Positions 32,967 to 60,813 of a stretch of DNA of 64,000 nucleotides are shown here, piece by piece. The stretch's first letter is position 1. Every line of letters begins with the position of its first letter. The translations under genes were made by a program, and so were the position numbers. Under the pieces are notes generated by a model. That model was not told the origin of the DNA. It saw only the letters and a program-made list of their open reading frames with translations, and did no database searches. The DNA is from an uncultured Planktomarina sp. (GTDB lineage: Bacteria; Pseudomonadota; Alphaproteobacteria; Rhodobacterales; Rhodobacteraceae), in contig CALSQF010000004.1 of the NCBI GenBank assembly GCA_943788425.1, positions 124,001 to 188,000 on the forward strand, written 5' to 3'.

Positions 32967-33941
32967 TGGAAATACCATCTAATACACCTGACGATGACGA
33001 GGGAGTTTTGAAAAATTCTGATTTAGTGGGTTTGCTTAGAGCAGCTAGCCTTACTGAGTTTCGACCTGATAATATTGCAGAGGAAAATGAGGAAAGGTTA
33101 TTTAAGTCTAGCAGTCTTTTTGACTTGGTTCGTTCAAATCTTTTAGACAGCGACACAAATAATGAGTTTTTTAAACAGGAAAAGCACACCAACAGTCAAA
33201 ATGATCTGTTGGATGATATCGAAAAACAACATCTTCACGAAACTTCCAACGCACAGGTTTCGGTTGGGGAAAAGAACTTTGCAACGGTTTCCGAAGGTGC
33301 TTTGGATGCGATAGATGATGCTATTGATCAAAAAATACATGGCCAGCATGCACGAAGATATTGTGCCTGGAAATTCTCATAAAATAAAGACTAAAGATTT
33401 TGATGACGAAACTGATCTGCAAGCTTCTAAAGAGGCTCTTTCAAACTTAGAATTAGTAGGTGAGGCGGAGGATACCTCTACTCAGATGCATTCTCGAGAT
33501 GAAGACACCTATTTTGAAAAAAAAATTGAGGAATTTAAAGCAGATTTTACGAGCCAATTTGCCGAAAGAGAAGAAGAGCTCTCGAACGCCCTTCAGGCAA
33601 TAATTGGTGCGTCCAATTTCATTGCTGATGAATTAGAAAAACAAATATCTGAATTTGTTTTGTCGTTGGCGTCAGGTCTTGCAGGTATGAGGATTGATGA
33701 AATTCCGGCTCCATTTAGCAAAAAAATTTCAGAGGCAGCAAAACAAATAGCTGGAAATGATGATGAGGTGAAAGTGTATTTGAATTCTAAAGATTTTGAG
33801 ATTTTGACTGCAATAAACTTTGATGATGGCTTGCAATATACATTTCATGCAAAAGAAAATTTGAAACGGGGAGAGTTCGAAGTCTTAAGTGCCAAATCAT
33901 CGGCACGTGTTTCATTGTTCGATCTCGCGGTTGGAGATTAA
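32966..33941 (+). pseudogene. fliH: Flagellar export ATPase regulator FliH, one frameshift
   Basis: FliH inhibits and positions the FliI ATPase. The first frame (32966-33382) is acidic and linker-like. The second (open to 33941) has the FliH core: a coiled-coil EEFKADFTSQFAEREEELS, then a C-terminal domain ending in KRGEFEVLSAKSSARVSL. They join in an A6 run at 33330-33335: with five A the chain reads DAIDQK-YMASM without break, about 324 residues. So this is one gene with a +1 indel or a slippage site. Position between fliG and fliI supports the call. Confidence 0.75.
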
Positions 33942-33947
33942 TCTAAA

Positions 33948-35312
33948 ATGCCGAGTAATAATGAAAAATATCAAACTCATGGCCAGAAATCTATGCTTGA
34001 AAGGACGTTTATTGGCGTGAAGAAACGCGTTTCTGTGACTGACAACATTGAATTTAGTGGTACGGTGGTCTCCTTTGACGGACAGGTGATCGAAAGTAGT
34101 CAATTTCCAGCTTCAATTGGCTCGGAATGCATTATTGAATCAAAATTTGGAGCCTCATCAAAGGGAGCTATTGTCGGCTTTAGGGATAATAAAAACATAA
34201 TTTTCCAATACGAAAAATCTTCAGAAATTTTAAGCGGTGACAAAGTTACTGCTTCTTTTGGACTGAAAGAAATTGAAGTTGGGCCGAACCTTTTGGGTCG
34301 TGTAATTGACGGGCTGGGTCACCCACTTGATGGGCAAGGATCAATTGATGCGGAGGAGCGTTATCCAGTAGAAGGAAAAGTTGTAAATCCATTCGATCGA
34401 GGGGAAATCACAGAAGTTTTTGATGTTGGAATTAAAAGTATAAATGCTGTGACATCCATTGGCCGTGGACAAAGAATGGGCATTGTCGCTGGCTCTGGCG
34501 TTGGTAAGTCGGTTCTTTTGAGTATGATTACCCGATGTGCAGAAGCGGACGTTATTGTAGTTGGTCTAATTGGAGAGAGAGGAAGAGAATTAGCTTCGTT
34601 TTCTAAAGAAATTACAAGCTCGCATTCAAAGCACAAGGTTATCATTGTTGCAGTGCCTGCAGACCGATCCGCGCTTCTCCGGCTACAGGGCGCTAAGAGG
34701 GCTACAAGCATTGCAGAGTACTTTCGCGACCAAGGTAAAAATGTTTTGCTGATTTTAGATTCTCTAACCCGCGTAGCTCATGCACAAAGAGAAATCGGAT
34801 TGTCTTTGGGAGAGCAACCGACGGCTAGAGGGTATCCTCCATCTGTAATTTCATTAATACCTGAACTAATTGAGCGAACTGGAGCTGGCATATATTCAGT
34901 GGGCTCAATCACGTCTATCTATACTATTCTCGCTGATGGCGATGATACTGTTTCAGACCCAATCGTTGATAATGCTAGAGCAATTTTGGACGGTCATATA
35001 GTTTTGTCAAGAAAACTTGCCCAGCAGGGAGTTTATCCAGCGATTGATGTTGGTAATTCTGTGAGTAGATTGATGGATGAATTGTGTAGTGAAAAACATT
35101 TACAAAATGCACGTAAGTTAAGGAAATTGGTATCTATATATCAAGAAAACCAAGATCTTCTCTTAATGGGGGGATACGTCCAAGGTCAGGATTCAGACCT
35201 TGATTTGGCAGTCCAATTATGGCCGAAAATCGTTGGCTTTTTGCAACAAAACCAAGCTGAAAATTTTTCATTCGTACAAACTGAGCGCTTGCTCTCAACG
35301 TTATTCGAGTAA
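33948..35312 (+). CDS. fliI: Flagellum-specific ATPase FliI
   Basis: ATPase of the flagellar type III export apparatus, F1-beta-like, 454 residues. Walker A GSGVGKS is near residue 181, the export-specific ERGRE follows, then Walker B LLILDSLTR and the signature EQPTARGYPPSVISLIPELIE. It forms a hexamer under FlhA with FliH and FliJ. Intact, seven bases after fliH and seven before fliJ. Confidence 0.95.
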   Translation: MPSNNEKYQTHGQKSMLERTFIGVKKRVSVTDNIEFSGTVVSFDGQVIESSQFPASIGSECIIESKFGASSKGAIVGFRDNKNIIFQYEKSSEILSGDKVTASFGLKEIEVGPNLLGRVIDGLGHPLDGQGSIDAEERYPVEGKVVNPFDRGEITEVFDVGIKSINAVTSIGRGQRMGIVAGSGVGKSVLLSMITRCAEADVIVVGLIGERGRELASFSKEITSSHSKHKVIIVAVPADRSALLRLQGAKRATSIAEYFRDQGKNVLLILDSLTRVAHAQREIGLSLGEQPTARGYPPSVISLIPELIERTGAGIYSVGSITSIYTILADGDDTVSDPIVDNARAILDGHIVLSRKLAQQGVYPAIDVGNSVSRLMDELCSEKHLQNARKLRKLVSIYQENQDLLLMGGYVQGQDSDLDLAVQLWPKIVGFLQQNQAENFSFVQTERLLSTLFE

Positions 35313-35319
35313 TTGTGGC

Positions 35320-35727: not shown

Positions 35728-35728
35728 T

Positions 35729-38155: not shown

Positions 38156-38731
38156 ATGGCTGAAGAAGCTCCAAAACGAAAAATTAACTTCACAAAAATT
38201 GCCATGTTTGGATTAGGCCCAGTTTTATTACTGGGAATAGGTGTTGGTGCGGGCGCTTTTTTATTCATGCCCACTCAAACGCCAATTGAACAGGTGGAAG
38301 AGCTGATTGAGAAAAAACTTAAGCAGGCGGGACAATTGCCCAGTGCTGATGGGCTTGATGAAGAAAATCTAGAGCCTCAAAAGGTTTCAAAAGAGACGCC
38401 CGTGAATGAGACATTTGTGACCAGTTACTATACTTTTGCTGATAACTTTACGACTAACTTAAATAAATCAAAGCAATTTTTGCAAGTTAGTGTAGGAGTA
38501 TCTACACAATATGATGAAACAGTAATTGAAAATGTTGAAAAACACCAAATGGCTCTTCGGTCTGAAGTTCTGGGTGTTATAGGTACTTATTCCGTCGATG
38601 ATATTGATGGTAAAATTGGTAGGGATAATCTTGCCAATAGCATTAAGGACGCAATCAATGTAAAGTTGCTGGATCTTGAGGGCTTTGGCGGTGTCGAAGG
38701 AGTTCACTTCACGTCCTTTGTGCTCCAATAA
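38156..38731 (+). CDS. fliL: Flagellar basal-body-associated protein FliL
   Basis: Single-pass inner-membrane protein beside the stator. Residues 1-14 are cytoplasmic and basic, about 15-38 form the helix (MFGLGPVLLLGIGVGAGAFLF). The periplasmic domain has the FliL pattern FADNFTTNLNKSKQFLQVSVGV and ends GVEGVHFTSFVLQ. 191 residues, intact. In R. sphaeroides FliL is needed for rotation. Between fliK and fliM in the same unit. Confidence 0.9.
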   Translation: MAEEAPKRKINFTKIAMFGLGPVLLLGIGVGAGAFLFMPTQTPIEQVEELIEKKLKQAGQLPSADGLDEENLEPQKVSKETPVNETFVTSYYTFADNFTTNLNKSKQFLQVSVGVSTQYDETVIENVEKHQMALRSEVLGVIGTYSVDDIDGKIGRDNLANSIKDAINVKLLDLEGFGGVEGVHFTSFVLQ

Positions 38732-38745
38732 GAGGCCAAATTTAA

Positions 38746-39744
38746 ATGGTTGGTTCTAGAAAACTTTCAAATGATGAAGTTGAGGCTCTCCTTGGCGGGC
38801 TTGATGCCGCTGCCAAACAGGAAGATACGAGTGCGGTTTTTGATACAACTGCGGTTAGAGAATTTGATTTTGGTTCAGAAGATCTTTCGCTTCTTGGTGA
38901 CTATTACGCACTTAGAATGGTCAACGAAAAAATCTGCAGATTTACACGGTCAGTATTTTTGCCAATGTTGCGAATTATGCCTCGGATCTCGTCGTTTCCT
39001 CCGGAAGTGAAATCGTTTGATGAGTATGTTGAAAGCTGTGACAACTTTGTAAGTGTGACAACTAATAGACTAGACGAGTTGAGAGGTAATTCTCTTTTGG
39101 TAGTGCAGTCTTCATTTATCTCAATTTTGACTAATTCATATTATGGTGGTTCAAAAATTAAAGCTTTGCACCAAAATAAAGGAGAATTTACGGCGACTGA
39201 ACAGCGTATTATCCAAATAATTACTGATGGAATGAACCGGGCCATGGAGAACGCATGGAAGGACCTGTTTGTCACGAGTTTTGAGCCATTGTCTCGAGAA
39301 GAAAATATCCAATTTGTCTCGTTTGTTGATGGTGTAGATACTGTTATTGTGTGTTCATTTATGGTACAAATGCCAGACGCAGAACCGGCGAGCTTTGACG
39401 TTTTATATCCTCTACAAACTTTAAAACCAATATCTTCGCAATTAAGATCACGAGTTCAAAATGAATTTGCACAAGACGATCGCACTTGGAAAGAAAAATT
39501 AGAGCAGGCAGTTTTATCCATAAACCTGCCTTTGTCAGCTGAATTGACTAATAGTAAAGCGAATTTAGGACGTCTCCTGAAAAGTACTGTGGGTGATGAG
39601 TTTCCTATTTCCATGCCCGAAAACATTACGATCAAGGTATCTGGCGAGCCCGTCTACAAAGCAGAAATTGGGAAACTGGGCGCCAATGCTGCTGTTTCAA
39701 TGACTAAAAGAATTTCACTGAAAAAGGACAAGGAAAATGGCTGA
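38746..39744 (+). CDS. fliM: Flagellar motor switch protein FliM
   Basis: C-ring protein binding phospho-CheY and FliG. 332 residues. The N-terminal peptide LSNDEVEALLGGL corresponds to the CheY-binding/FliM leader. The middle CheC-like domain and the C-terminal SpoA domain (about 255-325) are present (MPENITIKVSGEPVYKAEIG). Intact; its end overlaps the fliN start by eight bases. Confidence 0.93.
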   Translation: MVGSRKLSNDEVEALLGGLDAAAKQEDTSAVFDTTAVREFDFGSEDLSLLGDYYALRMVNEKICRFTRSVFLPMLRIMPRISSFPPEVKSFDEYVESCDNFVSVTTNRLDELRGNSLLVVQSSFISILTNSYYGGSKIKALHQNKGEFTATEQRIIQIITDGMNRAMENAWKDLFVTSFEPLSREENIQFVSFVDGVDTVIVCSFMVQMPDAEPASFDVLYPLQTLKPISSQLRSRVQNEFAQDDRTWKEKLEQAVLSINLPLSAELTNSKANLGRLLKSTVGDEFPISMPENITIKVSGEPVYKAEIGKLGANAAVSMTKRISLKKDKENG

Positions 39745-40042
39745 AGATATAAAGGCTGATGACGCTAATAAAAAACACGTTGGTATCGAAAACTTAAAGG
39801 TATTAGAAAATATTGATGTAGAATTGACTGTAGAGGTCGGACGTACTGAAATTACGATCCGTGACTTGCTGAGATTAAATGAAGGTTCTGTTGTTGAATT
39901 GGACAGATTAGCCGGAGATCCTCTCGATATATTGGTAAATAATACCAAAATTGCGAAGGGTGAAGTCGTTATGATTGGAGAACGGTTTGGTATCCGTTTT
40001 GGTGAAATTGTGGATCCGGAAAAAAGAATGGAAAGTATTTAA
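39737..40042 (+). CDS. fliN: Flagellar motor switch protein FliN
   Basis: A 101-residue C-ring protein consisting of a short N-terminus and one SpoA domain: VELTVEVGRTEITIRDLLRL, then GSVVELDRLAGDPLDILVNN and GEVVMIGERFGIRF. All conserved FliN blocks are present. Last gene of the fliKLMN unit; a 115-base AT-rich gap with a new promoter follows. Confidence 0.95.
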   Translation: MAEDIKADDANKKHVGIENLKVLENIDVELTVEVGRTEITIRDLLRLNEGSVVELDRLAGDPLDILVNNTKIAKGEVVMIGERFGIRFGEIVDPEKRMESI

Positions 40043-40118
40043 CACTCTTCTAGATTCAAAGAAATGACAATCAAAGTTTTATATTTTAAGTATATGATAT
40101 AATTATATATTATCAGAA

Positions 40119-40134
40119 TGGTATCTATTTTGCT
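40119..40134 (+). promoter_or_regulatory. Sigma-54 promoter of fliOPQR-flhB
   Basis: TGGTATCTATTTTGCT with GG and GC ten bases apart, 23 bases before the fliO ATG, in the only sizeable gap between fliN and fliO. Confidence 0.65.
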
Positions 40135-40157
40135 ACGCTTGGGTAGGGAGTAGGTAA

Positions 40158-40466
40158 ATGCCAGATTTTGACTTAAGTAAAATTGCTGTGGTACTGATAT
40201 TTTTGTCCATACTTGTAGCTACACAAGTTGTGGTGAAGCGCTCAAAATTCTTCCGAGTAAAATTGGATAAGTCTAACAACAGCGCAATTAAAATAGTTAA
40301 CACTGTAGCGGTATCAAAATTTTCTTCAGCTACAGTTATAGAGTGCGCAGGTTCATTGTTCCTTGTGGTTTCGAATAGAAATGGATCCCCGGCGATAGCC
40401 GAATTACCCAAGATACAACAAAATACGCTTACTTCTGAGCTTCAACCGGAGCTCATGGGTAAATGA
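40158..40466 (+). CDS. fliO: Flagellar biosynthesis protein FliO
   Basis: A 102-residue protein with an N-terminal membrane helix (IAVVLIFLSILVATQVVV) and a small cytoplasmic domain with the FliO pattern (KIVNTVAVSKFSSATVIEC, then FLVVSNRNGSPAIAELP). It helps assemble the FliP ring of the export gate. Placement before fliP and the four-base overlap support the name. Confidence 0.82.
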   Translation: MPDFDLSKIAVVLIFLSILVATQVVVKRSKFFRVKLDKSNNSAIKIVNTVAVSKFSSATVIECAGSLFLVVSNRNGSPAIAELPKIQQNTLTSELQPELMGK

Positions 40467-41227
40467 AACTTTTTTCCCTCAAGATCATTCTCCATCTCGT
40501 TTTTAGCTTAATGGCATCATCTGCATTTGGGCAGGATGGTAGCGTGTTAGGTATGCCAGCTTTGACTTCGAGTATTGGCGAAAATGGTGAATCGACTTAT
40601 TCTCTTTCTCTGCAAATTCTTGTTTTAATGACTGTACTGACTGTTGTTCCGTCAATTGTTTTGGGAATGACTGCGTTTACCAGGGTAATAATAGTGTTAT
40701 CTATTTTACGGCAGGCGTTGGGTACTCAACAAACGCCACCGAACCAAGTTCTAATTGCGATTGCACTTTTCATTACTTTTTACGTCATGAGCCCAATTTT
40801 TGAGGTAATTTATGAGACTGCGTTGAACCCCTACCTAGAGGGTACAAAATCTGCCCAGTTAGCTTTGGCTTCGGCCACTGACCTATTAAAAGAATTCATG
40901 GTTGCTAATACTCGCTCAGATACTATGAATATGTTTGCCGAGATGGCGGGTGAGGGGCCTTTTGAAAACACTCAAGCCATTCCGCTTTCTATTGTTTTAC
41001 CGTCATTCATTACATCTGAGTTGAAAACGGCTTTTGAGATTGGGTTTTTAATTTTCTTACCATTTCTGGTAATCGATATCGTTATTGCATCCATTCTTAT
41101 GTCCCTAGGTATGATGATGTTGTCGCCTATGTTGATTTCTTTGCCATTCAAGTTGTTGCTGTTTGTATTGGTTGACGGGTGGGCCATGACGATTGGATCA
41201 CTTTCATCAACATTTGTTGTGGGCTAG
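40463..41227 (+). CDS. fliP: Flagellar export gate protein FliP
   Basis: Core subunit of the export gate. 254 residues, a signal peptide (to about 22), then four helices. The signatures TAFTRVIIVLSILRQALGTQQ and PPNQVLIAIALFITFYVM are diagnostic, as is LPFKLLLFVLVDGW near the end. Intact. Confidence 0.96.
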   Translation: MKLFSLKIILHLVFSLMASSAFGQDGSVLGMPALTSSIGENGESTYSLSLQILVLMTVLTVVPSIVLGMTAFTRVIIVLSILRQALGTQQTPPNQVLIAIALFITFYVMSPIFEVIYETALNPYLEGTKSAQLALASATDLLKEFMVANTRSDTMNMFAEMAGEGPFENTQAIPLSIVLPSFITSELKTAFEIGFLIFLPFLVIDIVIASILMSLGMMMLSPMLISLPFKLLLFVLVDGWAMTIGSLSSTFVVG

Positions 41228-41231
41228 CGAT

Positions 41232-41501
41232 ATGGTTTTTGATCAAAATGTTCAGTATCTTAGTATGGCTTTTTGGCAAATTGTTGTGGTTGCTGGTCCT
41301 ATCTTGCTCGTGGCGCTATCGGTTGGTCTATTCATAGGCTTAATTCAAGCAGCTACGTCCATTAATGAAATGACTCTCAGCTTTGTGCCTAAACTTTTCA
41401 TCGTGTTAATGGCTATGTCTTTAATGGCTACTTTCACAATTACTCAAATGACCGATTATTTTAGTTATATTTTTGACGAAATATCCAGGAAAGGTCTCTA
41501 G
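41232..41501 (+). CDS. fliQ: Flagellar export gate protein FliQ
   Basis: An 89-residue protein with two helices, VVAGPILLVALSVGLFIGLIQAATSINEMTL-type FliQ pattern in the first half and VLMAMSLMATFTI in the second. The ATG at 41232 follows the fliP stop by four bases. Confidence 0.93.
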   Translation: MVFDQNVQYLSMAFWQIVVVAGPILLVALSVGLFIGLIQAATSINEMTLSFVPKLFIVLMAMSLMATFTITQMTDYFSYIFDEISRKGL

Positions 41502-41502
41502 T

Positions 41503-42321
41503 TTGTTACCAATAGTTAATGAATTAGGGGCTCTTCCTGGACTGGAGTTACAAGAGCTTTTTACCTTTTTGGTTTTAATACTGATAGCGTCGTTACGAGT
41601 TGGTGCGTTCTTGGTTTCAGCGCCGTTTTTTGGGGGTAGGATGGTGCCACTGCAAATCAGAATTGTGTTTTCATTTTGTTTGGGCTTTTGGATACTAGGG
41701 ACTCTTCAATTTCCGCAGCAGAGTGTTTTAGTGGGTCCCAAATTAATTTTGATTGTAATGCAGGAGATATTCATTGGCCTTACAGTCGGCTTAGTTCTCA
41801 ATATCTGCTTTGCTGCTGTGAGCTTGGCTGGTGAAAAAATTGCTGCAACTTCTGGTTTGGCTTTTGCGTCTCAAGTTGATCCAACTGGCGGTGGTCAGTC
41901 TCCAGTAATAAGCCAAATTTTTATGTTATTTCTCATAGTAGTGTTTTTCTCAGTTAATGGGCATTTGATAGTTTTAGGATTAATATATAAAAGCTTCACG
42001 CTTTATCCATTGGGCCAATTAGTAAATTATGGTGACTTGATCGCTGCTGGTCTGTCGGCAAGCGATATATTGTTTCGGTCGGCTGCAATCATTGTCTTGC
42101 CCATTGTCATCGTCTTGCTGTTTGTGAACATAGCAATTGGTTTTATTACAAAATCTGCACCGCAGCTTAACCTATTTTCCTTTGGGTTTCCAATGACCCT
42201 CATTGGCGCTTTTTTGATATTATTCTATTCAGTTGATGCGATTTCTTTCGCGTTTAAGGATTTAATTCAGTTAATCATTGATCTTTTGATGTCATTTCTT
42301 CTCGAGAAAACTGATGGCTGA
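41503..42321 (+). CDS. fliR: Flagellar export gate protein FliR
   Basis: Completes the FliP5Q4R1 gate. About 272 residues with six hydrophobic segments; RVGAFLVSAPFFGGRMVPLQIR and GLAFASQVDPTGGGQSPVI are typical FliR blocks. I take the TTG at 41503, one base after the fliQ stop, because AGGAAAGG lies about 9 bases upstream. It overlaps flhB by eight bases. Confidence 0.92.
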   Translation: MLPIVNELGALPGLELQELFTFLVLILIASLRVGAFLVSAPFFGGRMVPLQIRIVFSFCLGFWILGTLQFPQQSVLVGPKLILIVMQEIFIGLTVGLVLNICFAAVSLAGEKIAATSGLAFASQVDPTGGGQSPVISQIFMLFLIVVFFSVNGHLIVLGLIYKSFTLYPLGQLVNYGDLIAAGLSASDILFRSAAIIVLPIVIVLLFVNIAIGFITKSAPQLNLFSFGFPMTLIGAFLILFYSVDAISFAFKDLIQLIIDLLMSFLLEKTDG

Positions 42322-43459
42322 ACAAAATAATAGCCAAGAAAAGACGTTAGATCCAACTCAAAAGCGTTTGGAAAAAGCTAGGGAGGATGGTGACATCCTC
42401 TCATCGAAAGAAATGTTTGTCTTTGGTTCAAGTTTTATGGGTTTAATTATTTTATTTTGTTTGGGAATGGTGGCTAGGAACGTTCTTTCGAATTGGGCGT
42501 CTTTATTTCGCTGGAACCATTCCGAACACTTGAGTGTTCTGCGCATATTTAACTCTGAAGCTGCATTTGGTCTAGCATTAGGTGGTGCAGCTATTTTTGC
42601 CTTTCCCATCTTTACTGCCGTAATACTCACTCAATTTTTTGTTGCTGGATCCATCAATTTTTCTAGTAAGGCAATGTCGTTTAAGCCGAGTCGAATTAAT
42701 CCCCTTAGTGGATTGAAACGGATTTTTTCAGTCAAAGGCCTAGTCGAGCTCACTAAGTCAATAATGAAGATTATATTTCTGATATCAGTGACGGGGGCTA
42801 TAATTTGGGTGTCTTTGCCAAAATTATTATACTTGAGTAGTTCATCCTTAAGCGATGGTCTTACTGTATTTCATCAAACTTTGATGTCTTTAGTTGGTGG
42901 TTTGGTCGTAGTGTTGGCTTTTATTGCCTTGGGCGATTTCCTCTGGAGTCGTCATGAGTGGATGCAGAAGTTGCGTATGAACCGTCAAGATATGAAGGAT
43001 GAATCAAAAGATAGTGAAGGGTCACCGGAAGTTAAATCTCGAATAAGGCGACTTCAGATGGAGGCTAGCCAAAAAGCGTCTGAGAGAGCTCAGGCAATTG
43101 AAAATGTAAGTGATGCTACGGTAATTATTACGAACCCTACTCATTTCGCAGTTGCATTAAAATATCAGCCAGAAAACCGGGACACTCCCTATATAATTGC
43201 GATGGGTAAAGGGCCGATGGCGCTACGCATTATAGATGAAGCTGACAAAGCGAATATCAGCCGTGTGCGTAGCCCATTATTGGCTAGAGCTCTCTTTTTT
43301 ACTGGTGATATTGGGGTAGATGTAGCGGAAGATCTGTTCTCAGCTGTTGCCTCCGTTTTAGCTTATGTGCTTCAGTTGGAGCGTGGTACAAACCCATCCT
43401 TCGAAGATCCAAATATACCTGCCGATCTTCTGTTTGATGAATTTGGTTCGAAAATTTGA
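42314..43459 (+). CDS. flhB: Flagellar export switch protein FlhB
   Basis: Substrate-specificity switch of the export apparatus. 381 residues: N-terminal KTLDPTQKRLEKAREDGDI, four membrane helices, and a cytoplasmic domain with the autocleavage motif NPTH (near 272) in VIITNPTHFAVALKY. It partners FliK for the rod/hook-to-filament switch. Intact. Confidence 0.96.
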   Translation: MAEQNNSQEKTLDPTQKRLEKAREDGDILSSKEMFVFGSSFMGLIILFCLGMVARNVLSNWASLFRWNHSEHLSVLRIFNSEAAFGLALGGAAIFAFPIFTAVILTQFFVAGSINFSSKAMSFKPSRINPLSGLKRIFSVKGLVELTKSIMKIIFLISVTGAIIWVSLPKLLYLSSSSLSDGLTVFHQTLMSLVGGLVVVLAFIALGDFLWSRHEWMQKLRMNRQDMKDESKDSEGSPEVKSRIRRLQMEASQKASERAQAIENVSDATVIITNPTHFAVALKYQPENRDTPYIIAMGKGPMALRIIDEADKANISRVRSPLLARALFFTGDIGVDVAEDLFSAVASVLAYVLQLERGTNPSFEDPNIPADLLFDEFGSKI

Positions 43460-43475
43460 AGTCGAGGAAAAAATT

Positions 43476-43697
43476 ATGGCGCAGCGTAAAAGATCTACCG
43501 GTGAATTAATATCCTCAATCACTTTTTTTGGAGCATCTATTTGGTTGGTTTTTGAGGCGAAGCTGTTCTTAGAGGGAGGCGAGACCCTCAAAGGCATAAT
43601 TGTATACGTTGGAGCCTTTTTATCGTTTTTGGCAGCTTTTAGATTTAAGATACAAAGATTAATACTTCGACTGCGAGATGCGATATGGCCAAAATAA
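43476..43697 (+). CDS. 73-residue membrane protein after flhB
   Basis: Starts MAQRKRSTGELISS, with a hydrophobic segment pair (ITFFGASIWLVFEAKLFL and GIIVYVGAFLSFLAAFRF) and a basic tail. GAGGAAA lies about 9 bases before the ATG. No known family. It overlaps the next small gene by 13 bases and is probably the tail of the fliO-flhB transcript. Confidence 0.6.
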   Translation: MAQRKRSTGELISSITFFGASIWLVFEAKLFLEGGETLKGIIVYVGAFLSFLAAFRFKIQRLILRLRDAIWPK

Positions 43698-43873
43698 CAT
43701 GTTCCAACTGCTTTTACTTTTTTGTAACCCACGACAAAAAACGGCCGTGGGGTTGTAAAAAGTTCAATTTTAAGTCGAAATCCCTACCCAGCCAGTCAGT
43801 TCTCATAACTACTGGCACAGATTGTGCTTACCATAGTCTGAAATCCAGTGCAGCACTGACCAAAAGGTTTTGA
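43685..43873 (+). CDS. Four-cysteine small protein
   Basis: A 62-residue protein with Cys in a CxxC (CSNC), a PWGCKKF segment and a late TDC. The pattern CxxC...P-x-GC-x-x-F-x-F-KSK-x-LPS...C is that of a small conserved protein often found beside flagellar genes and sometimes misnamed uracil-DNA glycosylase. It probably binds zinc or a cluster. Role unknown. The promoter for the next unit lies inside its 3' end. Confidence 0.65.
   Translation: MAKITCSNCFYFFVTHDKKRPWGCKKFNFKSKSLPSQSVLITTGTDCAYHSLKSSAALTKRF
43813..43828 (+). promoter_or_regulatory. Sigma-54 promoter of the MotF-position unit
   Basis: TGGCACAGATTGTGCT, GG and GC ten bases apart, within the 3' end of the four-cysteine gene and 48 bases before the ATG at 43877. 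Confidence 0.75.
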
Positions 43874-43876
43874 GAG

Positions 43877-47172: not shown

Positions 47173-47191
47173 TGCTCATCTCCTTTGGTAA

Positions 47192-47218: not shown

Positions 47219-47366
47219 GCCAAAAAATCAATTTGACACCTTTCAAGTGTCGATATTTTGACAAGCAGTGAAGTAGATTAAGAAATAAGCTCCTAAACAT
47301 ATATCAACGCCCGTCGTTACTTTCCCTGAGGGCTTTGCAGCCCAGTTCGTAACTAGGAGAATTGCT

Positions 47367-50260: not shown

Positions 50261-50281
50261 TTGAAGGCGGATTAACGAATC

Positions 50282-51481
50282 ATGGCTGAAGAAGCTCTCA
50301 ACGAAGAAGATCAGGACGAACCGGATTGTCCTAAGTGCCCTCCACCCGGTGCACCTGCGTGGATGGCAACATTTGCTGATATGGCAACATTGTTGATGGC
50401 TTTCTTCGTTCTTATCCTATCATTCGCCGAATTTAACGTTCCAAAATTTAAACAAATTTCAGGTTCACTTCGTGAAGCATTTGGTGTTCAGAAAGTGGTT
50501 CCTGTTGTGGAACAACCAAAAGGGACCACAGTAATTTCACTGAACTTTAGCCCCAACCCCACTCCAGCTGTAACTGAAACTCTCCGCCAACAGACGACTG
50601 AACTTCAAAAGCCTGAATTGGAGTTGCAAACTAAATTAGAAGATTCTCCTGAGGGTGGCGAGGCAGATAAGAAAAAAGACTCTGACTTTGATGGCGCTGG
50701 CGGTGAAAGTGATGCGTCCCTTGATGCTACAGAATTGGCCAAGCAGTTACAGAAAGCTATTGATAGCGGGGAGGTGCAAATAGAAACTCTCGGCGAAAAT
50801 GTTGTGATTAATTTTCCGAAGGAAGAGTTGGATCCAGAAGAAATTAAAAGCATGATCCAGGAGACGATGAACGCGCTTGCTGAAGCCCGGCAGGCTGCCG
50901 GGGCCTCAGAAAGTGAAGTTCTTTTTGGCGGCTTAGAAGCCGAACTCCAAGAATTAGCGGCATCTCTCGAGGAGAGTTTTCCCGAGAATGGAACTGATCA
51001 GGGTGGATCATCTCAGCAAGAGAGCGAAAAACTGCAGAATGCCTCTAAGGCTACAGAAGAGTTGACCGTGGCTCTGCAAGAGCAAATCGACCAGGGATTG
51101 ATCGACATTGAACAGCGCGAGGGCAGCGTCTTTATATCCGTCGGCGCTGGTGGTGCATTCCCATCTGGGACTGCAGACTTAACTGGCGACGCGCAGGCAA
51201 TTCTAGACCGCATTGCGCTTACGGCAATGAGCCCTGAAAGTAAGATTACTGTTACGGGCCACACGGATGACGTACCAATTTCGAATGGGAAGTTTAGGGA
51301 CAATTGGGATCTTGCTGCGGCGCGGGCTGCAAGCGTAGTCCAGACGATTGAGGAAACAGGTTTAGTGTCAGGTGGTCGGATGTCGGCAGTCAGTAAAGGA
51401 GAAACAGATCCTGTTGCGGATAATGTGACTGCTGAGGGCCGTGAAGAAAATCGTAGAATTGAAATTGAAATTTCGTATTGA
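50282..51481 (+). CDS. motB: Flagellar stator protein MotB (PomB-like)
   Basis: Stator subunit of 399 residues. The N-terminus CPKCPPPGAPAWMATFADM closely follows PomB, with the ion-binding Asp33 in the single helix (ending LSFAEFN) and the FKQISGSLREAFGVQ region after it. A long acidic linker leads to a C-terminal OmpA/MotB peptidoglycan-binding domain (TGHTDDVPIS, then NWDLAAARAASV). Similarity to PomB suggests sodium coupling, reasonable for a marine cell, but ion use is not proven by sequence. Confidence 0.93.
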   Translation: MAEEALNEEDQDEPDCPKCPPPGAPAWMATFADMATLLMAFFVLILSFAEFNVPKFKQISGSLREAFGVQKVVPVVEQPKGTTVISLNFSPNPTPAVTETLRQQTTELQKPELELQTKLEDSPEGGEADKKKDSDFDGAGGESDASLDATELAKQLQKAIDSGEVQIETLGENVVINFPKEELDPEEIKSMIQETMNALAEARQAAGASESEVLFGGLEAELQELAASLEESFPENGTDQGGSSQQESEKLQNASKATEELTVALQEQIDQGLIDIEQREGSVFISVGAGGAFPSGTADLTGDAQAILDRIALTAMSPESKITVTGHTDDVPISNGKFRDNWDLAAARAASVVQTIEETGLVSGGRMSAVSKGETDPVADNVTAEGREENRRIEIEISY

Positions 51482-51528
51482 TCTAAGTTTTTTGCTGAGT
51501 TGGTCGTTTATTACTAGGAGAGTCTTTT

Positions 51529-53171
51529 ATGAGCCAGACGATTAGCAACGACTACGTGAGCATGATTAACAAGAGTGGCTCAGGATATAATATTCCTGAA
51601 ATTGTTGATGCGATTGTTGATGCTGCGATTGTGCCGGTAAAAGAAGTTGTAACTGCCCAGAAAGAGAAGGTAGAAACTTCGATTTCAGGTATGGGCACAC
51701 TTAAATCCAGCATGTCTGCGACGCAGACGCTCGTAAATTCGATGAGTTCAGGTTCCCACTTCACTCTCAAACAATCACCAAATTCCAATTTTATGCGTTC
51801 CACTGTTGTGGACCAAGCATTGCTTACAGAAGGCCTTAATACATTCGAAAACGTTGAGATTGCTAAGCCACAGATATGGCGAGCAGGATGGCGAAACTGA
51901 TTTAAATAGAACTGTCACTGATCAAACTATAACAATAGAATTTGGAACGAATGGTGCAAATGACAATGGATGGTCGGCATCAAGCCCCGCACGTTCCGAG
52001 CAGGTTGTTTTGTCTGGAGACACTTTATCCTCCGCGGTCACTAAATTAAACAATGTCACAGGATTAAAGGCTGAATTTGTGCAGCTTTCCTCCAACTCAA
52101 GTAATTATTCAGTGGTTTTGACTAGTGAGACTGGAGTAAAAAATGGTTTTCAAGATGACGAATAACGCATCTACAGGATGGAAGACTGCAGCCGGTGGCA
52201 CAGGTGACTTCTTTCAAGCAGGCTGTAGACGCTACCTTTGATTTAAACGGTCAAAGCTATTCGCGTTCGAGTAACAAAATTTCAGATATTATTGCAGGTG
52301 TGGAAGTAGAGCTTTTATCCAGAAGGCCGCAAGCCCAGTCCACTACCATAACAAAGTCTTCAGAAAACATTCAGAAAACTGTAGAAACATTGATTGCAGA
52401 CCTTAACGCCTATAAATCTGATCTAAATAAACTTGGCTTTATTGATGAAGTTGGTGACGAAAATGGTGAGTTAGCTCACAGTTCGTTTCTTAGGAATGCA
52501 AAAAGAAAACTTACCAATTTTATGACGGCACCCATTGCAGGTTTCGGTGATAACAATATCTATTTCGTAGATTTCGGAATAAAGACGGCAAAGGATGGAT
52601 CGTATGTATTCGATCAAACCAGTTTTGATCGCACGTTTACTAATTCACCTGAAAAATTTGATGCACTGACAGAAGATAAGGCCTATGCGAGTGACCCGGA
52701 TGTCTTTGTATATGCAACTGCAGACTCAGCTGTTCCAGCAGGCAAGCACACTTTCACAGATTCTAACGATAGGCTTAGTTATGGAGCTAGCTCGGTAAAG
52801 ATCTAACTTTTACTGGTCCTAGCTCTGGTAAATATAACTTTTCTACATCTGATTACCCTGGTTTTTTGTTCCAAGCCTCAAGTTCGACTCCTGGCGATCT
52901 GGCGATCTATGTTGGCCGAAGTGCGAAAACAAAATTACTTAATTTCTTTTCAGATGCGCTCGCGACTGCAGGAAACCTTGATGCTACTGTCGATCTTTAC
53001 AAAGAGCGGGCGTCCTCGCTAGACGCAAGATTAGCAAAAATTGATCAACGGGAAGCGCTCCTTCAGGCGCAGTATACAAAACAATTTTCTGAAATGGAGA
53101 AAGTGGTCAACACGTCGACATCATCATCAGACTATGTCACCCAACTGGTAGACGGCTGGAATAAATCTTAA
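51529..53171 (+). pseudogene. fliD: Filament cap protein FliD, four frameshifts
   Basis: Caps the growing filament. Pieces in successive frames: 51529-51900 (FliD N-terminal coil), to ~52150 (TITIEFGTNGANDNGW), ~52150-52190 (MTNNASTGWKTAA), 52195-52794 (FliD core with DATFDLNGQSYSRSSNKISD), and ~52795-53171 (C-terminal coil ending VTQLVDGWNKS). Joins near 51868, 52150 and 52192 need one base removed; near 52794 one base is missing. Rejoined length about 547 residues, normal for FliD. The good ribosome-binding site (AGGAGAG) and unbroken sense between joins argue for recent lesions or sequencing errors. Confidence 0.75.
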
Positions 53172-53176: not shown

Positions 53177-54289
53177 TTAAAGGCCATATTTCTTTATTTT
53201 TTCTATTAAAGTCGTGCGCTGTAAGTGGAGATCTTTAGCAGCTTCACTCGTGTTACCCGCGTTTCTTTCGAGCGCTTTTTCAATTAGAACGATCTCCACA
53301 TCTCTGAGAAGTCTCCTAACATCAACACTGTTGGAGCTGTCAAACAGCCTTGAGAAATCTTTTGCTGTTGGTGGCGCACGTTCGTCAGCTTCATGGCCGC
53401 GTTCCGCGCCACCCAACTCGTCAAGTACGCTCCAAATATTTTCATTTTCTTCAACATGGTCAAAAAATGCATTTTGATTAAACCCAAGTAGGGTCTGGGT
53501 AACTTGTTCTCGATTGATGCTTTGACCAGGAAAAAACACTTTCGCCCGCTCCAGAATATTTCGTAGCTCTCTAATATTGCCTGGCCATTCATATGTGGTG
53601 AGCGCTTCAAATCCACTCTTGTCAAAGCCAAACGGGGCTTCGTTTGCACTGACATATGAATTGTCTTTGAGAAAGTGGGTAACTATTTCTGGTATGTCAT
53701 CCAAGCGTTCTCGCAGGGTTGGCACTTGGATTGGAAAGACATTTAGCCGAAATAGCAAATCCTCACGGAATTTATTTTGTTTTACTAATTCTTCCAGGTC
53801 TTTATGCGTCGCGCATACCACTCTTACGTCTAATTGTATGTCTGCTCGTCCACCCACTCTTGTAACAATGGAATTTTCTAAGCACCCGGAGCAATTTTGA
53901 TTGCAAGTCGAGGTTCATGTCTCCTATCTCGTCAAGAAACAGTGTTCCCTTTATTTGCTTGTTCAAATTTTCCAGGCGTTGTTTTGACTGCTCCAGTAAA
54001 CGCACCTTTTTCATAGCCAAATAATTCGGCTTCCATCAAATCACGAGGTATGGCAGCGCAGTTGACGGCTACAAATTTGCCCTTTCGGCGACTTACGTCG
54101 TGCACAGCTTTCTGCTACCAGCTTCTTTCCTACACCTGTTTCGCCTTGAATTATGACGGCAGCATGTCAGATGGTGCTACCAGCGATATTAGTTTTTTGA
54201 GGCGCATTGCCGCCTCTGAGCTACCAACTAATTTCGAATACATTGCAGACATTCAGTACACCGCGAATTTGGGCAATTCCTATGGTCAT
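53177..54289 (-). pseudogene. fleQ: Sigma-54 activator FleQ, several frameshifts
   Basis: Master flagellar activator, AAA+ plus Fis-type HTH. Across frames one reads SAMYSKLVGSSEAAMRLKKL, Walker [28 protein letters not shown] (sigma-54 loop), Walker [22 protein letters not shown], and the C-terminal HTH SEAAKDLHLQRTTLIEKIKK. Shifts lie near 54165, 54108, 53945 and 53880, mostly one base. The start is uncertain: ATG 54289 gives only ~20 residues before the AAA+ domain, so no receiver-like domain is visible. With its HTH it complements FleT, which has none. Convergent with fliD, five bases apart. Confidence 0.78.
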
Positions 54290-54510
54290 GCATAACATCA
54301 TTACTGCATTCGTTGTAATACCTACAACTATTAACACAAGTTCTATCGTATTTACAAAACACTTTATTCATAAATGCTAATGAGATACAGTATAGGTGAG
54401 GTAAATTGCGTGTGGTTTGTAATAAGTAGAGGGCTGTCAATTGAAACGATTATTGGCCTCTATTGCACCTGCAAAAATTAAGCGGGCACTTTTCGAAGAA
54501 AAAGAAAAGT

Positions 54511-54738
54511 ATGCCATTGCTTGATTATGATTTAACACGGTTCGATGAGCAGGATATAATTTTAGAGAGCGAAGCGCAAATTCAAGAATTTTTACCGGAT
54601 ATTCTGGGACAGGCACTGGCGCGTACTTGGGTTGATAAGAGGTTTTTAGATGCGTTTTATGATCAGCCCAAGGAGATCCTAGAGCGGGCAGGCGTCTTTC
54701 CTTCCCAAATCGATTTCCGTGGAGTTTATCAAGAATAG
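54511..54738 (+). CDS. Small protein resembling NHLP leader / nitrile-hydratase-alpha N-terminus
   Basis: A 75-residue acidic protein, no membrane segment. The second half (GQALARTWVDKRFLDAF, then QPKEILERAGVFP) resembles the helical domain of nitrile hydratase alpha subunits and NHLP precursor peptides (pattern aRAw-DpxFxxxLlxDPkxxL-x-GI). There is no Gly-Gly cleavage site or cysteine/serine-rich core, and no maturase nearby, so a peptide natural product is unlikely. ATG 54511 follows an AAAAG-rich site. Function unknown. Confidence 0.5.
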   Translation: MPLLDYDLTRFDEQDIILESEAQIQEFLPDILGQALARTWVDKRFLDAFYDQPKEILERAGVFPSQIDFRGVYQE

Positions 54739-54829
54739 ATAAAGAAAGGCCTAAGGTGATAGTTTATCAAAAAAAGGGATCGAAAAGTACACGGCTTCTA
54801 GAATTAAAATTAGTTATGGTTGCAGCGAC

Positions 54830-55432
54830 ATGATACGTATGGTTTGTGGTTTAGCCTTTCTGGTGATGATTGTTGTGACTACTGCGCGTGCGCAAACAGA
54901 AACAATTGAAGCCAATCCTGATATCTTTGTGAATGCAATCAATGCAATTGAAAAGAAAGACTTTCAAACTGCGGTAGAACTTTTCACCATTCTTGCTAAC
55001 GAAGGCGAACCTACGTCTCAACATAATTTATCTATATTATATTTTAAGGGTCTTGGCAGCCCGGTAAGTTATAAGCGGGCGCTATATTGGGCGTGGCGTG
55101 CATCCTTAGGTGGTAGTGAACCGGCAATGGCTGTAGTTGATGATGTGCGAGATATAGTGACTGAGGACTTGATAGGGGTTGTAGCTCAAGAAATAGTTAG
55201 CGAGTTGACTGCTAAGGCAATGGATGGTGACACGGATGCCGCAGAAAGATTAGGCAAGACTTATTATAATCTATTTGTGGAGCCGGATCTAAAAATGGCT
55301 TACACGTGGCTGTTGATCTCGCAGGCCTTTGGTAATGAAAGTGTGAGCGACATGATATCGGAGTTAGAAGATTTAATAGCAATTGAAGATAAAATTACAT
55401 ATCAGGAAGAAGCGACCGAAACTTTTTATTAA
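54830..55432 (+). CDS. Exported Sel1-repeat protein (MotX-like candidate)
   Basis: A 200-residue protein with a signal peptide (about 1-21, ending TTARAQ) and Sel1 repeats (DFQTAVELFTILANEGEPTS, HNLSILYFKGLGSPVSYKRA, then DTDAAERLGKTYYN and DLKMAYTWLLISQAFGNES). Periplasmic Sel1 proteins include MotX of the Vibrio T ring, which joins the PomAB stator to the basal body. PomAB-like stators, FlgT and FlgP are encoded nearby, so a MotX-like role is plausible but not shown. Divergent to flgN. Confidence 0.65.
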   Translation: MIRMVCGLAFLVMIVVTTARAQTETIEANPDIFVNAINAIEKKDFQTAVELFTILANEGEPTSQHNLSILYFKGLGSPVSYKRALYWAWRASLGGSEPAMAVVDDVRDIVTEDLIGVVAQEIVSELTAKAMDGDTDAAERLGKTYYNLFVEPDLKMAYTWLLISQAFGNESVSDMISELEDLIAIEDKITYQEEATETFY

Positions 55433-55445: not shown

Positions 55446-55746
55446 TTAATTTTTCGGGGTTATCTTGGATAGAAAGCTAAGTTTATCCGTTTCTTGGTTA
55501 ATATGCTGTTCAATAATATCTATTTTTGATGTTAATTGAGTTAAAATAGATTTTATTTTTTCAGGATCTTCTAGCTGCAGCATTTTCAGGAATTTGAGCC
55601 ATAGCATACTCATCTATAAGCGAATAAAAATCTTTAATTATTTGAGTCAAAAATGCTTCGTTAGCCCGAGACTCTATGTCTGGACTTGATAGTAACTCTC
55701 TCATTTGTTCCAGCTTATCTAGGAACAAATGGCTGTCGATATTCAT
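55446..55746 (-). pseudogene. flgN: Flagellar export chaperone FlgN, one frameshift
   Basis: Helical chaperone for hook-associated proteins. The first frame encodes MNIDSHLFLDKLEQMRELL and SLIDEYAMAQIPEN. An extra A in a four-base T run (55583-55586 on the plus strand) shifts it. The next frame continues MLQLEDPEKIKSILTQL and ends DKLSFLSKITPKN at 55446. Rejoined length is about 100 residues, a bit short for FlgN. Identity rests on position after flgM, four bases apart, and coiled-coil composition. Confidence 0.6.
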
Positions 55747-55750
55747 GCTA

Positions 55751-56050
55751 TCAGCTTCCAGCTTCCTGGAAGCTTTCAAACATTTTGGCTGTCACGATAT
55801 CCAGGTCGATCGGATAACGTCCCTGTTCGACTTTAGTCTTTATTTCGTTTACTAATGAGCGGTCTACGGGGGGCCCATCGGCAAGTTTAGCAACCTGATC
55901 CTTAATTTTAAGATCTTGGCTGTCCAACTTATTTACTATTTCCTTAGGCGCCAAATCCGAGACTTTTTTGTCGGGTTGGATAGTCACTTTGTTACTATCG
56001 CCTAACTGAACGCCGGCGGCATTAACGTTATTACCTACAGAATTAATCAT
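55751..56050 (-). CDS. flgM: Anti-sigma-28 factor FlgM
   Basis: Inhibits FliA until exported through the completed hook. 99 residues: a disordered N-terminus and the C-terminal FlgM helix region PPVDRSLVNEIKTKVEQGRY followed by PIDLDIVTAKMFESF. GAGGAG sits 8 bases before the ATG at 56050. Intact. FliA is encoded at 62911. Confidence 0.9.
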   Translation of the reverse strand: MINSVGNNVNAAGVQLGDSNKVTIQPDKKVSDLAPKEIVNKLDSQDLKIKDQVAKLADGPPVDRSLVNEIKTKVEQGRYPIDLDIVTAKMFESFQEAGS

Positions 56051-56087: not shown

Positions 56088-56807
56088 TTAATTTATGTTA
56101 GCTAGCGGCGAAACTTTTTTTTCTGCGGTCACTATGGCTTTAAATTCTTTTAATGAAGATGAATTTCTAACCAAGACCATGTCACCTACTTTTCCGTCAG
56201 AAAGCGCCTCTCCATAGGTTACAATTCTTATTGCAGCTGATCCAGATATTATCAGAACCGCATCATTTTTATTGACTGCGTTCTTCGCCAATATGTGTCG
56301 AGCCTTTATAACGGTATCCCTAGACAAATTCCGTTTTGCTTTTTGACCAACGATATTATCGAGCGTCACGTATGCGCCCCGCGCAGTTTGAGAGTCAGCC
56401 CATTTCATCACGACATCAGCTGGTTCAATCACCTTACCTTTTGGGATATTAAGTTTTGTAAACACAATCTGCGCACTGTTTGAAAGATTATTATGCCTTA
56501 ATTGTTCACTTTTTATTGCCCTGTCTTGCGTTCTAAAGGAAATAGACCAGCGAGCCGGCTCGCCGCATGACGCTTTGAGCGTGTGCCAGCTACTAGGGTT
56601 TTTTTGCGTTATCAATATTTTTTCATTACACGGAAAATAGGCGCGCTTTTCAGAAACCAAAATTTCATTGTATACGTCATTCTCAGCCAAATAGCTTTGG
56701 GCAATTTTTTTGATGTCTGCACCAAAAATCAACCTTTCCTCAGCGCAAAGCATTTGAGTATTCGTAGTAATCAGAAAAACGGTAAATATCTTGATAAATA
56801 TTTGCAT
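56088..56807 (-). CDS. flgA: P-ring assembly protein FlgA
   Basis: Periplasmic chaperone of the P ring. 239 residues with a signal peptide (about 1-22) and a C-terminal SAF domain (ARGAYVTLDNIVGQKAKRNL, then LAKNAVNKNDAVLIISG and GKVGDMVLVRN). The two cysteines in the N-terminal part (FPCNE, ASCGEPARW) match FlgA disulphides. It overlaps flgT by one base. flgI, encoding the P ring itself, is not in the window. Confidence 0.88.
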   Translation of the reverse strand: MQIFIKIFTVFLITTNTQMLCAEERLIFGADIKKIAQSYLAENDVYNEILVSEKRAYFPCNEKILITQKNPSSWHTLKASCGEPARWSISFRTQDRAIKSEQLRHNNLSNSAQIVFTKLNIPKGKVIEPADVVMKWADSQTARGAYVTLDNIVGQKAKRNLSRDTVIKARHILAKNAVNKNDAVLIISGSAAIRIVTYGEALSDGKVGDMVLVRNSSSLKEFKAIVTAEKKVSPLANIN

Positions 56808-57908
56808 TAGTAACGTTCCAGCAATTTAATGCTTAATCCGTCAAAAGACTTTCCAGTTTTACCCTGTGTAAGTGCGTGCAGAGTTGTTGAAGTATTATTC
56901 ATCTGCTTAACGGTGAAGTAGTATTGTTGAGTGCCAGACTGTAGAGAGCTAAAAATATCATCTGGCGACAACCCATCTTGCAGGCCATAATCGATCTCCA
57001 AATTTTTATTTTTAAGTTTTATTTTCCCACTAAAATCTATGCATTCTAAGTGCTGCAAAGTTTGAGTGATTGACTCCAATGCCAATTCAAAGACCGCCGC
57101 CTGAATACTTTCCGAGTCTCGTCGCCTAGAATTAGAGCCACTAACAAACATACCGCTTTTCTCAATCTCAATCTCTGTTTTAGATTCCGCTCCATTCAAA
57201 GCTTGAGATTTTCGGAATAATTCAGATTGAGCTTTCACTGACAAAACCTTTTTCCGTTGGAGAAGGTTAGTTGTCTTGACGTCTAGATCCAGTGAAAGTG
57301 TAAGCAAATAGTTTGGTGTCGACCTTACGGGTGCATTTTCATTTTCATATAGTGAATAGCTCGATGAGGTCGTGGAACGGTAAGGATTATTTTCTTGGAA
57401 GTTGAATTTGCTGTTGGTAGCCATCATCGCTTCTATTGTCTGCGTTAGTGACAGTTCATCAAATTGCACCCAGAATGGCAGTGATTTCTTTATGGAGAAC
57501 CCCTGCCATTTAAAAGCTAGGTCAAGGTTATTTGGCTGACGACAGCTAATTTGGGTTTCATTTTGATTTTCTGGCAGGAGCAATATCTCAAGGCGCGCTG
57601 AAACTTTATCTCCATGGTCCTTTGTTGATAGCACTCGATAGCCAGCAATTTGTACATTCGATTGTGCAGAAATCTGATCAAATAACACCTTACCATTTTC
57701 TACTAGAGAAAAACTATCCAAAGACTGAGCACCGGTTTGCAGGACTAACTGCAGTGCGTTGGAAATGGCACGAGCTTCGTACACGCTATATGGGAAGCTC
57801 TGCAGTCTTGAGCGCAGTTCCCTCCGACTCTACGACGAAACGCTCGGCATGCGCCGAAGTCGAAAGTGCCATTAACACAAAACAAAAAAGTATTGGAAGG
57901 TTCTTCAT
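56807..57908 (-). pseudogene. flgT: H-ring/flagellar assembly protein FlgT, one frameshift
   Basis: Vibrio-type basal-body H-ring protein. The first frame is a signal peptide (MKNLPILFCFVLMALSTSAH) and the FlgT start ERFVVESEGTALKTAELP. Near 57790 one extra base makes a stop, and the next frame continues YSVYEARAISNALQLVLQTG and SFSLVENGKVLFDQISAQS exactly as FlgT requires, to 56807. Rejoined about 366 residues, normal. FlgT stabilises MotX/FlgP around the LP ring. Between flgP and flgA. Confidence 0.75.
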
Positions 57909-58503: not shown

Positions 58504-58519
58504 AGCAACAACTGTGCCA
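58504..58519 (-). promoter_or_regulatory. Sigma-54 promoter of flgP-flgT-flgAMN
   Basis: On the minus strand TGGCACAGTTGTTGCA has GG and GC ten bases apart, 37 bases before the flgP ATG. A divergent sigma-54 promoter for flhA lies 72 bases away, so one activator site could serve both. Confidence 0.8.
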
Positions 58520-58591
58520 AAAAAAAAATCAAAAATTTTACCTTCAATTAAAGATAATCAAACGCATGATATTACGCGAAGAATCGCGGTA

Positions 58592-58607
58592 TGGCACGTT
58601 TTATGCA
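58592..58607 (+). promoter_or_regulatory. Sigma-54 promoter of flhA-flhFG-fliA
   Basis: TGGCACGTTTTATGCA, a near-consensus -24/-12 element with ten-base spacing, about 104 bases before the flhA ATG. Confidence 0.8.
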
Positions 58608-58711
58608 TATAGATAAACATCAAGCGCTGTTGGTGCCCGTTAATTAATAATTAACTCGTATTATCAGCGATTTAGTTTGTCATTAATTTGACGGTATTGA
58701 GGACGTTACAC

Positions 58712-60813
58712 ATGCAGCAGAGCCAGGCCATAGGGTTTTCAATGGGCGACATCAAAAAAATGTCAGGTTCATTGCTGCCCGTTGGCATTCTCGCTTTGGT
58801 TGGAATGCTTGTATTGCCATTGCCGGTCGCTTTGCTAGACATATTTTTTGTTTTTAACATCACGATTTCTCTACTCATCTTAATGGTTGCACTGCACACC
58901 CATCGCCCACTTGATTTTTCTTCTTTTCCAAATTTATTACTATTAGCAACTGTGTTGAGGCTAGGTTTAAACGTGGCCTCAACTAGGATAGTTTTGTCAG
59001 AGGGCCATAATGGGGCTGATGCGGCCGGTAAAGTTATCCAGGCTTTTGGAGAATTCATTGTGGCGGGCAATTATGCTGTCGGCCTGTTTGTATTTGCTAT
59101 TCTGGTTATTATTAACCTAGTCGTGATCACAAAAGGTGCTGGGAGGGTGTCTGAAGTTTCAGCGAGATTCACGCTGGATGCTATGCCTGGAAAACAAATG
59201 GCGATTGATGCTGATCTCAATGCTGGAGTTCTGACCCCAGAAGAAGCGACAGATCGTCGAGCTGAGGTATCTAAAGAGGCAGATTTTTACGGCTCAATGG
59301 ACGGTGCTTCCAAGTTTGTAAAAGGGGATGCAATTGCCGGCATACTGATCTTAGCAATTAATGTGGTTGGTGGCCTGATAATTGGAATTGCTCAACATGA
59401 CTTAAACGTTGCCCAAGCAGCGGAATTTTACATTCTGCTTTCAATAGGAGACGGACTGGTAGCACAAATCCCGTCATTGTTACTTTCGATAGCGACAGCA
59501 ATTATAGTCACTCGTGTGTCTTCGTCAGAAAACATGTCTGAACACATAACCCGTCAGGTGAACCTTTCAGCGGCTTGGCTGCCGACTTCTTTGGTGATGC
59601 TAGCATTAGGTTTGGTACCAGGCATGCCTAATATCTCTTTTTATTGGCTTTGCCGTAATCAGTGGGGTTCTTGCGTGGAATTCTCGAAGAACGGAAGTTT
59701 CTGCATTATCTGGTGAAGTGATTAGTGAAGACGATGAGGATTCAACCGAAAAGGTGGAATTTGGACTAGCAGACGTAAAAGATGCGGCAAAGATTTCTGT
59801 CAATATTGGTTATGGGCTGGTACCGCTCGTGGATGAAAGCAAAGCAGATAATTTGGTCCCTAAAGTTACTCGCTTGAGGAAAGAAATTTCTAAGGCACTG
59901 GGATTCATCGTTCCGGGGGTGAGAATTCGTGATGATCTAAACTTAGAGGGGTCTCAGTATCAGATAAAGATTGGCCAAAAAATTGTGGCGGATGACCTTA
60001 TTTATGCGGATAAAAAATTAGCGATAGCCGGCGACAGTACTAATCTTGAGCTATCTGGTCTAAAGGTTAAGGAACCAGCTTTTGGTGTAGATGCATATTG
60101 GATTGATAAAGAACTTCAGGCTGATGCCGAAGCCAAAGGCTATGTGATTGTTGAGCCTGAAGATGTTTTAACAACTCACCTGAACCAGATTATTAATAGT
60201 TATGCATCAGATTTATTGGGCCAGGAAGAAGTCCAAGAGTTGTTGGATAATTTGAAAGTATCATATCCTAATTTAGTGGATACAGTAGTTCCCAAAGTGA
60301 TGCCCCTTAATCAGGTTACGTCAGTCATGAAGTGCATACTTGAGGAAGGGGTGCCAATATCTGATTTGAGATTAATTCTTGAAAGTTTAAGCTCAATGAA
60401 TATCCAAAAGATGGATAGTGATGACATAGCTGAGCGCATCCGCCCCAAATTAGTGCCGTTATTAATTCAAAAACTCTCTGAAATTCAGGGATACTATTCC
60501 GTTAATTACATTTTCTCCTGAACTTGAACAAATGATTTTGACCACTGTAAGGCAAAATCCTGACGAAAAAATGCTTTTGATTGAGGGAACTCTTGCTAAA
60601 AAAATACTTTCGAACCTTAATGATGCATCGGAAAAATTTAACAGCGAAGGAAAGCCCGTGTTTCTTATTGTTGCGCCGCAAATTCGTAAGCATGTGGCAA
60701 GGTTTGTTAGATCTCAATTGCCGTCGATAAATGTTTTGAGTTTCTTAGAATTACCTGAAGACCGAAGTGTAGAAATAGCATTCACAGTTGGAGGTTTTGA
60801 TGCAATTGAGTAA
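58712..60813 (+). pseudogene. flhA: Flagellar export protein FlhA, two frameshifts
   Basis: Export-gate core of the type III apparatus. The first frame (to ~59640) has the FlhA membrane domain with the FHIPEP-type block RLGLNVASTR and AGRVSEVSARFTLDAMPGKQ. An extra T in a five-T run at 59638-59642 shifts it; the continuation FIGFAVISGVLAWN is in the next frame, open to ~60490. A second shift at GGG 60488-60490 leads to TIPLITFSPELEQMIL and the C-terminal domain to 60813. Rejoined it is about 700 residues, the standard length, with no missense damage seen. ATG 58712 has GAGG ~9 bases upstream. Confidence 0.82.

Follow-up and report, generated by a model that had tools for sequence, protein, structure and literature searches.

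The flagellar gene cluster of an uncultured Planktomarina was analyzed in a stretch of 64,000 nucleotides, hereafter the window, which corresponds to G000:C4:124001-188000, i.e., part of contig C4 of the Planktomarina draft genome G000 (2.54 Mb, 19 contigs, 93% complete). Genes of this cluster are broken by frameshifts, which are best read, at a probability of about 0.78, as residual insertion and deletion (indel) errors in the draft assembly, clustered in a patch of poor consensus that extends from rpoN to flhA; the living cells probably carry readable flagellar genes. Assembly error is favored because ordinary metabolic and regulatory genes in other parts of G000 carry similar lesions, likewise rich in insertions; because the frameshifts between rpoN and flhA come without a single stop codon; because the conserved broken genes are under strong purifying selection; because no lesion of the window is common to a relative; and because contigs from fragmented assemblies and the one-contig genome G019 are free of frameshifts in the homologous genes.

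The cluster lies within a stretch of approximately 75 kb of low guanine-cytosine (GC) content, which begins near a tRNA-Met at position 15316 of the window, where the content drops from ~0.52 to 0.39, and persists to roughly C4:215000. Its genes within the window are arranged as follows (window positions and strand):
28540..32966, + strand: sigma-54 activator, fliE, fliF and fliG, intact
32966..33941, + strand: fliH, 1 frameshift; intact 325-residue frames in G014 and L015
35754..38146, + strand: fliK, 3 frameshifts; intact 797-residue frame in G014
38156..45495, + strand: fliL, fliM, fliN, fliO, fliP, fliQ, fliR, flhB and two uncharacterized genes, intact
45708..47190, - strand: rpoN (sigma-54), 1 frameshift; main piece with Pfam Sigma54_CBD and Sigma54_DBD; intact in G014 (487 residues) and G002 (498 residues)
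47355..48163, + strand: fliC (Flagellin_N), pieces in three frames, outside the count of 22
48424..48882, + strand: fliC-adjacent gene, unbroken where it aligns (residues 22-187 of a 188-residue relative)
49496..51481, + strand: motA and motB, intact
51526..53171, + strand: presumably fliD (named by gene order), 4 frameshifts; intact 548-residue frames in L035 and G002
53177..54252, - strand: presumably a fleQ-like sigma-54 activator (named by gene order), 4 frameshifts; intact 356-residue frames in L034, L035 and G002
54441..54830, + strand: 129-residue gene without a Pfam match, 3 frameshifts
54830..55432, + strand: Sel1-repeat gene, 1 frameshift near its end
55449..55806, - strand: flgN-like gene, 1 frameshift; no Pfam match, named by order
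56807..57908, - strand: flgT, 1 frameshift; FlgT_N weak, under the curated cut-off
58688..60813, + strand: flhA, 2 frameshifts; intact in G014, G015, G019, G004 and G012
60835..63615, + strand: flhF, flhG and fliA, intact

Frameshifts were counted by aligning whole proteins of relatives to the DNA of the window plus the 20 kb that follow it, with a protein/DNA alignment that allows frameshifts. Alignments below 50% identity were dropped in the tally, and fliD of G015 and fliK of G002, which were lost at this step, were later restored. The 15,739 aligned residues contain 22 frameshifts, which affect 11 genes; 21 of them are inside the window and one is in flgC, which lies outside it in L036. 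The segment from rpoN to flhA (45.7-60.8 kb) holds 17 of these in 4,366 residues, or 39 per 10,000 codons, and has no internal stop; 4 fall between the first sigma-54 activator and 45.5 kb (5,123 residues, no stops), and 1 falls downstream of flhA (6,250 residues), where one stop lies in a gene beyond the window. From the rest of G000, ~1.4 frameshifts would be expected between rpoN and flhA (Poisson P ~3e-13, for a segment picked after inspection).

An earlier note on this DNA had described many one-base frame breaks after which the protein resumes in the neighboring frame, and the census bears this out, as does fliC, whose pieces occupy three frames; fliC was excluded from the count because an intact close reference is lacking. 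The list of broken genes in that note stands for fliH, fliK, rpoN, fliC, fliD, fleQ, flgN, flgT and flhA. The fliC-adjacent gene on the list is continuous where it aligns, although its first 21 residues are unaligned and may hold a break. The neighbors named as intact are so: fliE, fliF, fliG, fliI, fliJ, fliL, fliM, fliP, fliR, flhB, motA, motB, flhF, flhG and fliA showed zero frameshifts in the alignment, while fliN, fliO and fliQ, named by gene order, are single-piece, full-length matches to G014. The remark that regulator and filament genes are affected most agrees with the share of the rpoN-flhA segment; however, this concentration stays unexplained because the hot spot of a relative, G015, is the same segment.

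Comparison with the DNA of the closest relative, G014, matched each of the 22 frameshifts to an indel, comprising 16 one-base insertions, 5 one-base deletions and 1 two-base deletion. A homopolymer origin, which the earlier note had proposed for most of them, was tested twice and found unsupported: 13 of the indels are outside any run, 6 fall in runs of two and 3 in runs of three or four bases. Control one-base indels in noncoding DNA seldom repeat the neighboring base (5/16 and 4/15), and the neighbor-repeat test is uninformative because these controls behave alike.

The same note had doubted that sequencing errors would spare other genes, a doubt that is met by the occurrence of similar insertion-rich frameshifts elsewhere in G000. 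When seven stretches on contigs C1, C3, C4, C6, C10 and C12 were compared with G019 (alignments below 80% identity dropped), 14 frameshifts were matched to indels, namely 10 one-base insertions, 1 two-base insertion, 2 one-base deletions and one 10-base deletion; insertions thus make up 11 of 14 here and 16 of 22 in the flagellar cluster. Two of the seven stretches have zero frameshifts, and at least one of the 14 lies in a frame that is also interrupted by a stop and might not be a gene. Within the first 15 kb of the window, comparison with G019 gave one frameshift and a stop, both in a single doubtful frame, and comparison with G014 gave no frameshift. The background of G000 amounts to 13 to 16 frameshifts in 40,265 residues, depending on the counting rule, i.e., 3-4 per 10,000. 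Ten affected proteins were scanned, nine of which gave a Pfam match; the affected genes include aminotransferases, a GntR/MocR-type regulator, an alpha/beta hydrolase, a GGDEF-EAL protein, a VWA/CoxE protein, an S-adenosylmethionine (SAM) methyltransferase, a GMC oxidoreductase and a LysR regulator.

Additionally, a reference-free hidden Markov model (HMM) of coding frame was used solely for the relative density of calls, which was 24 in 812,884 bases of 41 stretches of G000, 2 in 247 kb of G019 and 0 in 120 kb of the relative G013. As a frameshift counter it proved too blunt, giving at its strict setting 5 calls in the cluster of the window versus 21 by alignment, and it confuses some gene overlaps with frameshifts (glyS beside a phosphoenolpyruvate-utilising enzyme; two adjacent ABC ATPases). 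The calls in G000 are enriched near contig ends, with 10 of 24 within 10 kb; the distances tried were 5, 10 and 15 kb, with P values of 0.013, 0.007 and 0.050. After the removal of 5 likely gene overlaps, 7 of 19 calls remain within 10 kb (P 0.048), an indirect and weak excess in favor of an artefact.

Such errors have precedents. Assembler, platform and coverage are reported to produce many spurious pseudogenes (Cooley and Wright 2024, PMC11017572), and long-read indels to cause frameshifts in predicted proteins (PMC10182627). Two marks of pseudogenes arising from assembly error are found here, namely lesions in unrelated genes of the same assembly and lesions unshared with relatives. As in PMC11017572, frame breaks are scattered in otherwise conserved genes and their counts follow the assembly rather than the lineage; unlike there, the breaks in the window crowd together within 15 kb, a segment that is also affected in an unrelated relative.

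Several of the broken genes point the same way. Relative to G014, the ratio of nonsynonymous to synonymous substitution rates (dN/dS) marks as strongly conserved flgC (0.013), flhA (0.039), fleQ (0.048), the 129-residue gene (0.052), rpoN (0.061), the Sel1-repeat gene (0.115), flgT (0.146) and fliD (0.199). Neutral decay is expected to leave several to many substitutions per indel. The earlier note had likewise held that real decay should add missense and stop changes, and the 17 frameshifts without a stop, together with the low dN/dS of the conserved broken genes, agree with that reasoning. For dN/dS between G015 and G002, most values are unusable because synonymous sites are saturated.

The comparison with relatives that the earlier note had called for gave a divided answer: the lesions are unshared, which favors error, yet G015 has the same hot segment. 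In the same gene set, G014 carries 9 frameshifts, G015 28 and G002 12, and no lesion of the window lies within 10 codons of a same-sign lesion in any relative; two same-sign pairs occur between relatives, in fliD (G014 and G015) and flgA (G015 and G002). G002 was rejected as a witness because ordinary genes there are also frameshifted (6 in ~4,500 residues). The fragmented-assembly contigs L015, L016, L034 and L035 (the last two from G012), which appear from their names and contig numbers to derive from short reads, show zero frameshifts when 7,811 residues are aligned to references of different origin. The drafts G012 (L034 and L035) and JAFMEA01 (L015 and L017) each hold two copies of the flagellar region, i.e., two clusters or mixed strains. 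G019 has zero frameshifts in 3,059 aligned residues; its cluster resembles that of the window in homologous genes and a similar order around motA-fliD-fleQ-flhA, and differs in its lack of any frameshift, its higher GC and its ~66-70% DNA identity where aligned.

Several observations weigh against assembly error. The hot spot is where this reading is weakest: it recurs in G015 and is accounted for by inference only. The patch from rpoN to flhA lies mid-contig at ~12 times the genome background. In G015, the same segment (L021 and L022) carries 19 frameshifts in 4,225 residues, and that genome is nearly clean elsewhere, with 0 in 4,754 residues and 2 HMM calls at the strict setting across 11 other stretches; 2 further strict calls fall in L088, which adjoins its cluster. 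G014 has 9 frameshifts and two stops despite a sequence built from HiFi reads with short-read correction (PMC8254474); 5 of these frameshifts and both stops, which are in fliD, lie between rpoN and flhA. The position of most indels outside runs is no clean mark of error. Moreover, dN/dS against G014 is raised in the broken flgN (0.33), fliK (0.39) and fliH (0.49), and the nonsynonymous/synonymous ratio, when summed over genes, reaches 0.62 for those broken in the window versus 0.38 for those intact in both. Residue changes in the broken genes are derived in the window rather than in G014 at 30:13, or 21:10 with 8 codons masked around each lesion (P 0.07 alone); the masked ratio compares with 46:35 in intact genes (Fisher P 0.39). 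Since fliH and fliK also evolve comparatively fast between G015 and G002 (dN 0.52 and 0.39), they may be fast by nature. Thus, no clear relaxation of selection is seen in the broken genes, though a hint of it remains.

Under assembly error, a consensus that was poor across rpoN-flhA would concentrate indel errors there, and the poor patch might itself stem from low read depth or from co-occurring strains that differ at this locus. A strain difference is suggested by the uneven divergence from gene to gene and by the scattered occurrence of the cluster across the genus.

Real recent decay, in which a lineage that no longer needs its flagellum gathers indels in the genes, is the strongest alternative and an unlikely one. 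Real flagellar gene loss does occur in Planktomarina. G013 has the same island and the same flanking genes, and lacks the equivalent of 28.9-58.9 kb of the window (~30 kb); transposase frames with Pfam HTH_Tnp_1 and rve_3 mark the break (L032:7029-8162), no FliF match was found in this genome, and flgB, flgC, flgE-flgI, flhF, flhG and fliA are retained as whole frames. Among 20 genomes of the genus, some incomplete, 12 lack a match to flhA, as do 4 of the 10 more complete ones, and FliF is also unmatched in four of those without flhA (G003, G008, G009 and G010). The two fliD stops in G014, the raised dN/dS of fliH, fliK and flgN, and the hot segment of G015 speak for decay as well. The loss in G013 differs from the state of the window in being a single deletion with transposase genes at its break and no frameshifts in 732 residues against references from other genomes. 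Against decay in the window, the stop codons that should accompany it are missing from rpoN-flhA, fleQ has four frameshifts but only 4 residue changes derived in the window, genes for export and motor are intact, and similar lesions affect unrelated genes elsewhere in G000.

It is improbable that natural Planktomarina populations have a genuine indel hot spot at rpoN-flhA, at which G000, G015 and, more weakly, G014 would repeatedly gain single-base insertions in regulator and filament genes, with export and motor genes whole, motility recurrently switched off and the broken copies young. There is equally little to be said for a mosaic of co-occurring strains that differ at the locus, some truly lesioned, which the consensus has stitched together. 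Synonymous divergence from G014 varies among neighboring genes of window 28540-51481 in a recombination-like manner, from 0.07 (fliG) to 1.3 (motA), and relatives differ in whether they have the cluster, both of which speak for such a mosaic; real knock-outs, however, should bring stop codons, of which the segment has none. Programmed frameshifting or phase variation is hardly credible: regulator and filament genes are among those affected, but the slippery runs conserved between relatives that it would call for are missing, the sites lying outside long runs and none being shared, and several of the same genes are single-frame in relatives.

If the frameshifts are artefacts, they caution that a single draft genome should not be taken to show motility loss or regulator-first decay; a workable test is to combine the stop count, the selection on the broken genes and the spectrum of lesions in the remainder of the assembly. 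If they are real, they would represent a striking case in which control genes of the flagellum are inactivated locally and repeatedly in an abundant marine bacterial group. A search of the available literature found no paper on these flagellar lesions, and a search for plasmids matched one distant Octadecabacter record. Beyond the window, L036 encodes two hook-type proteins of very large size, one FlgE-like (1262 residues, L036:2572-6357) and one FlgK-like (1445 residues, L036:10122-14456).

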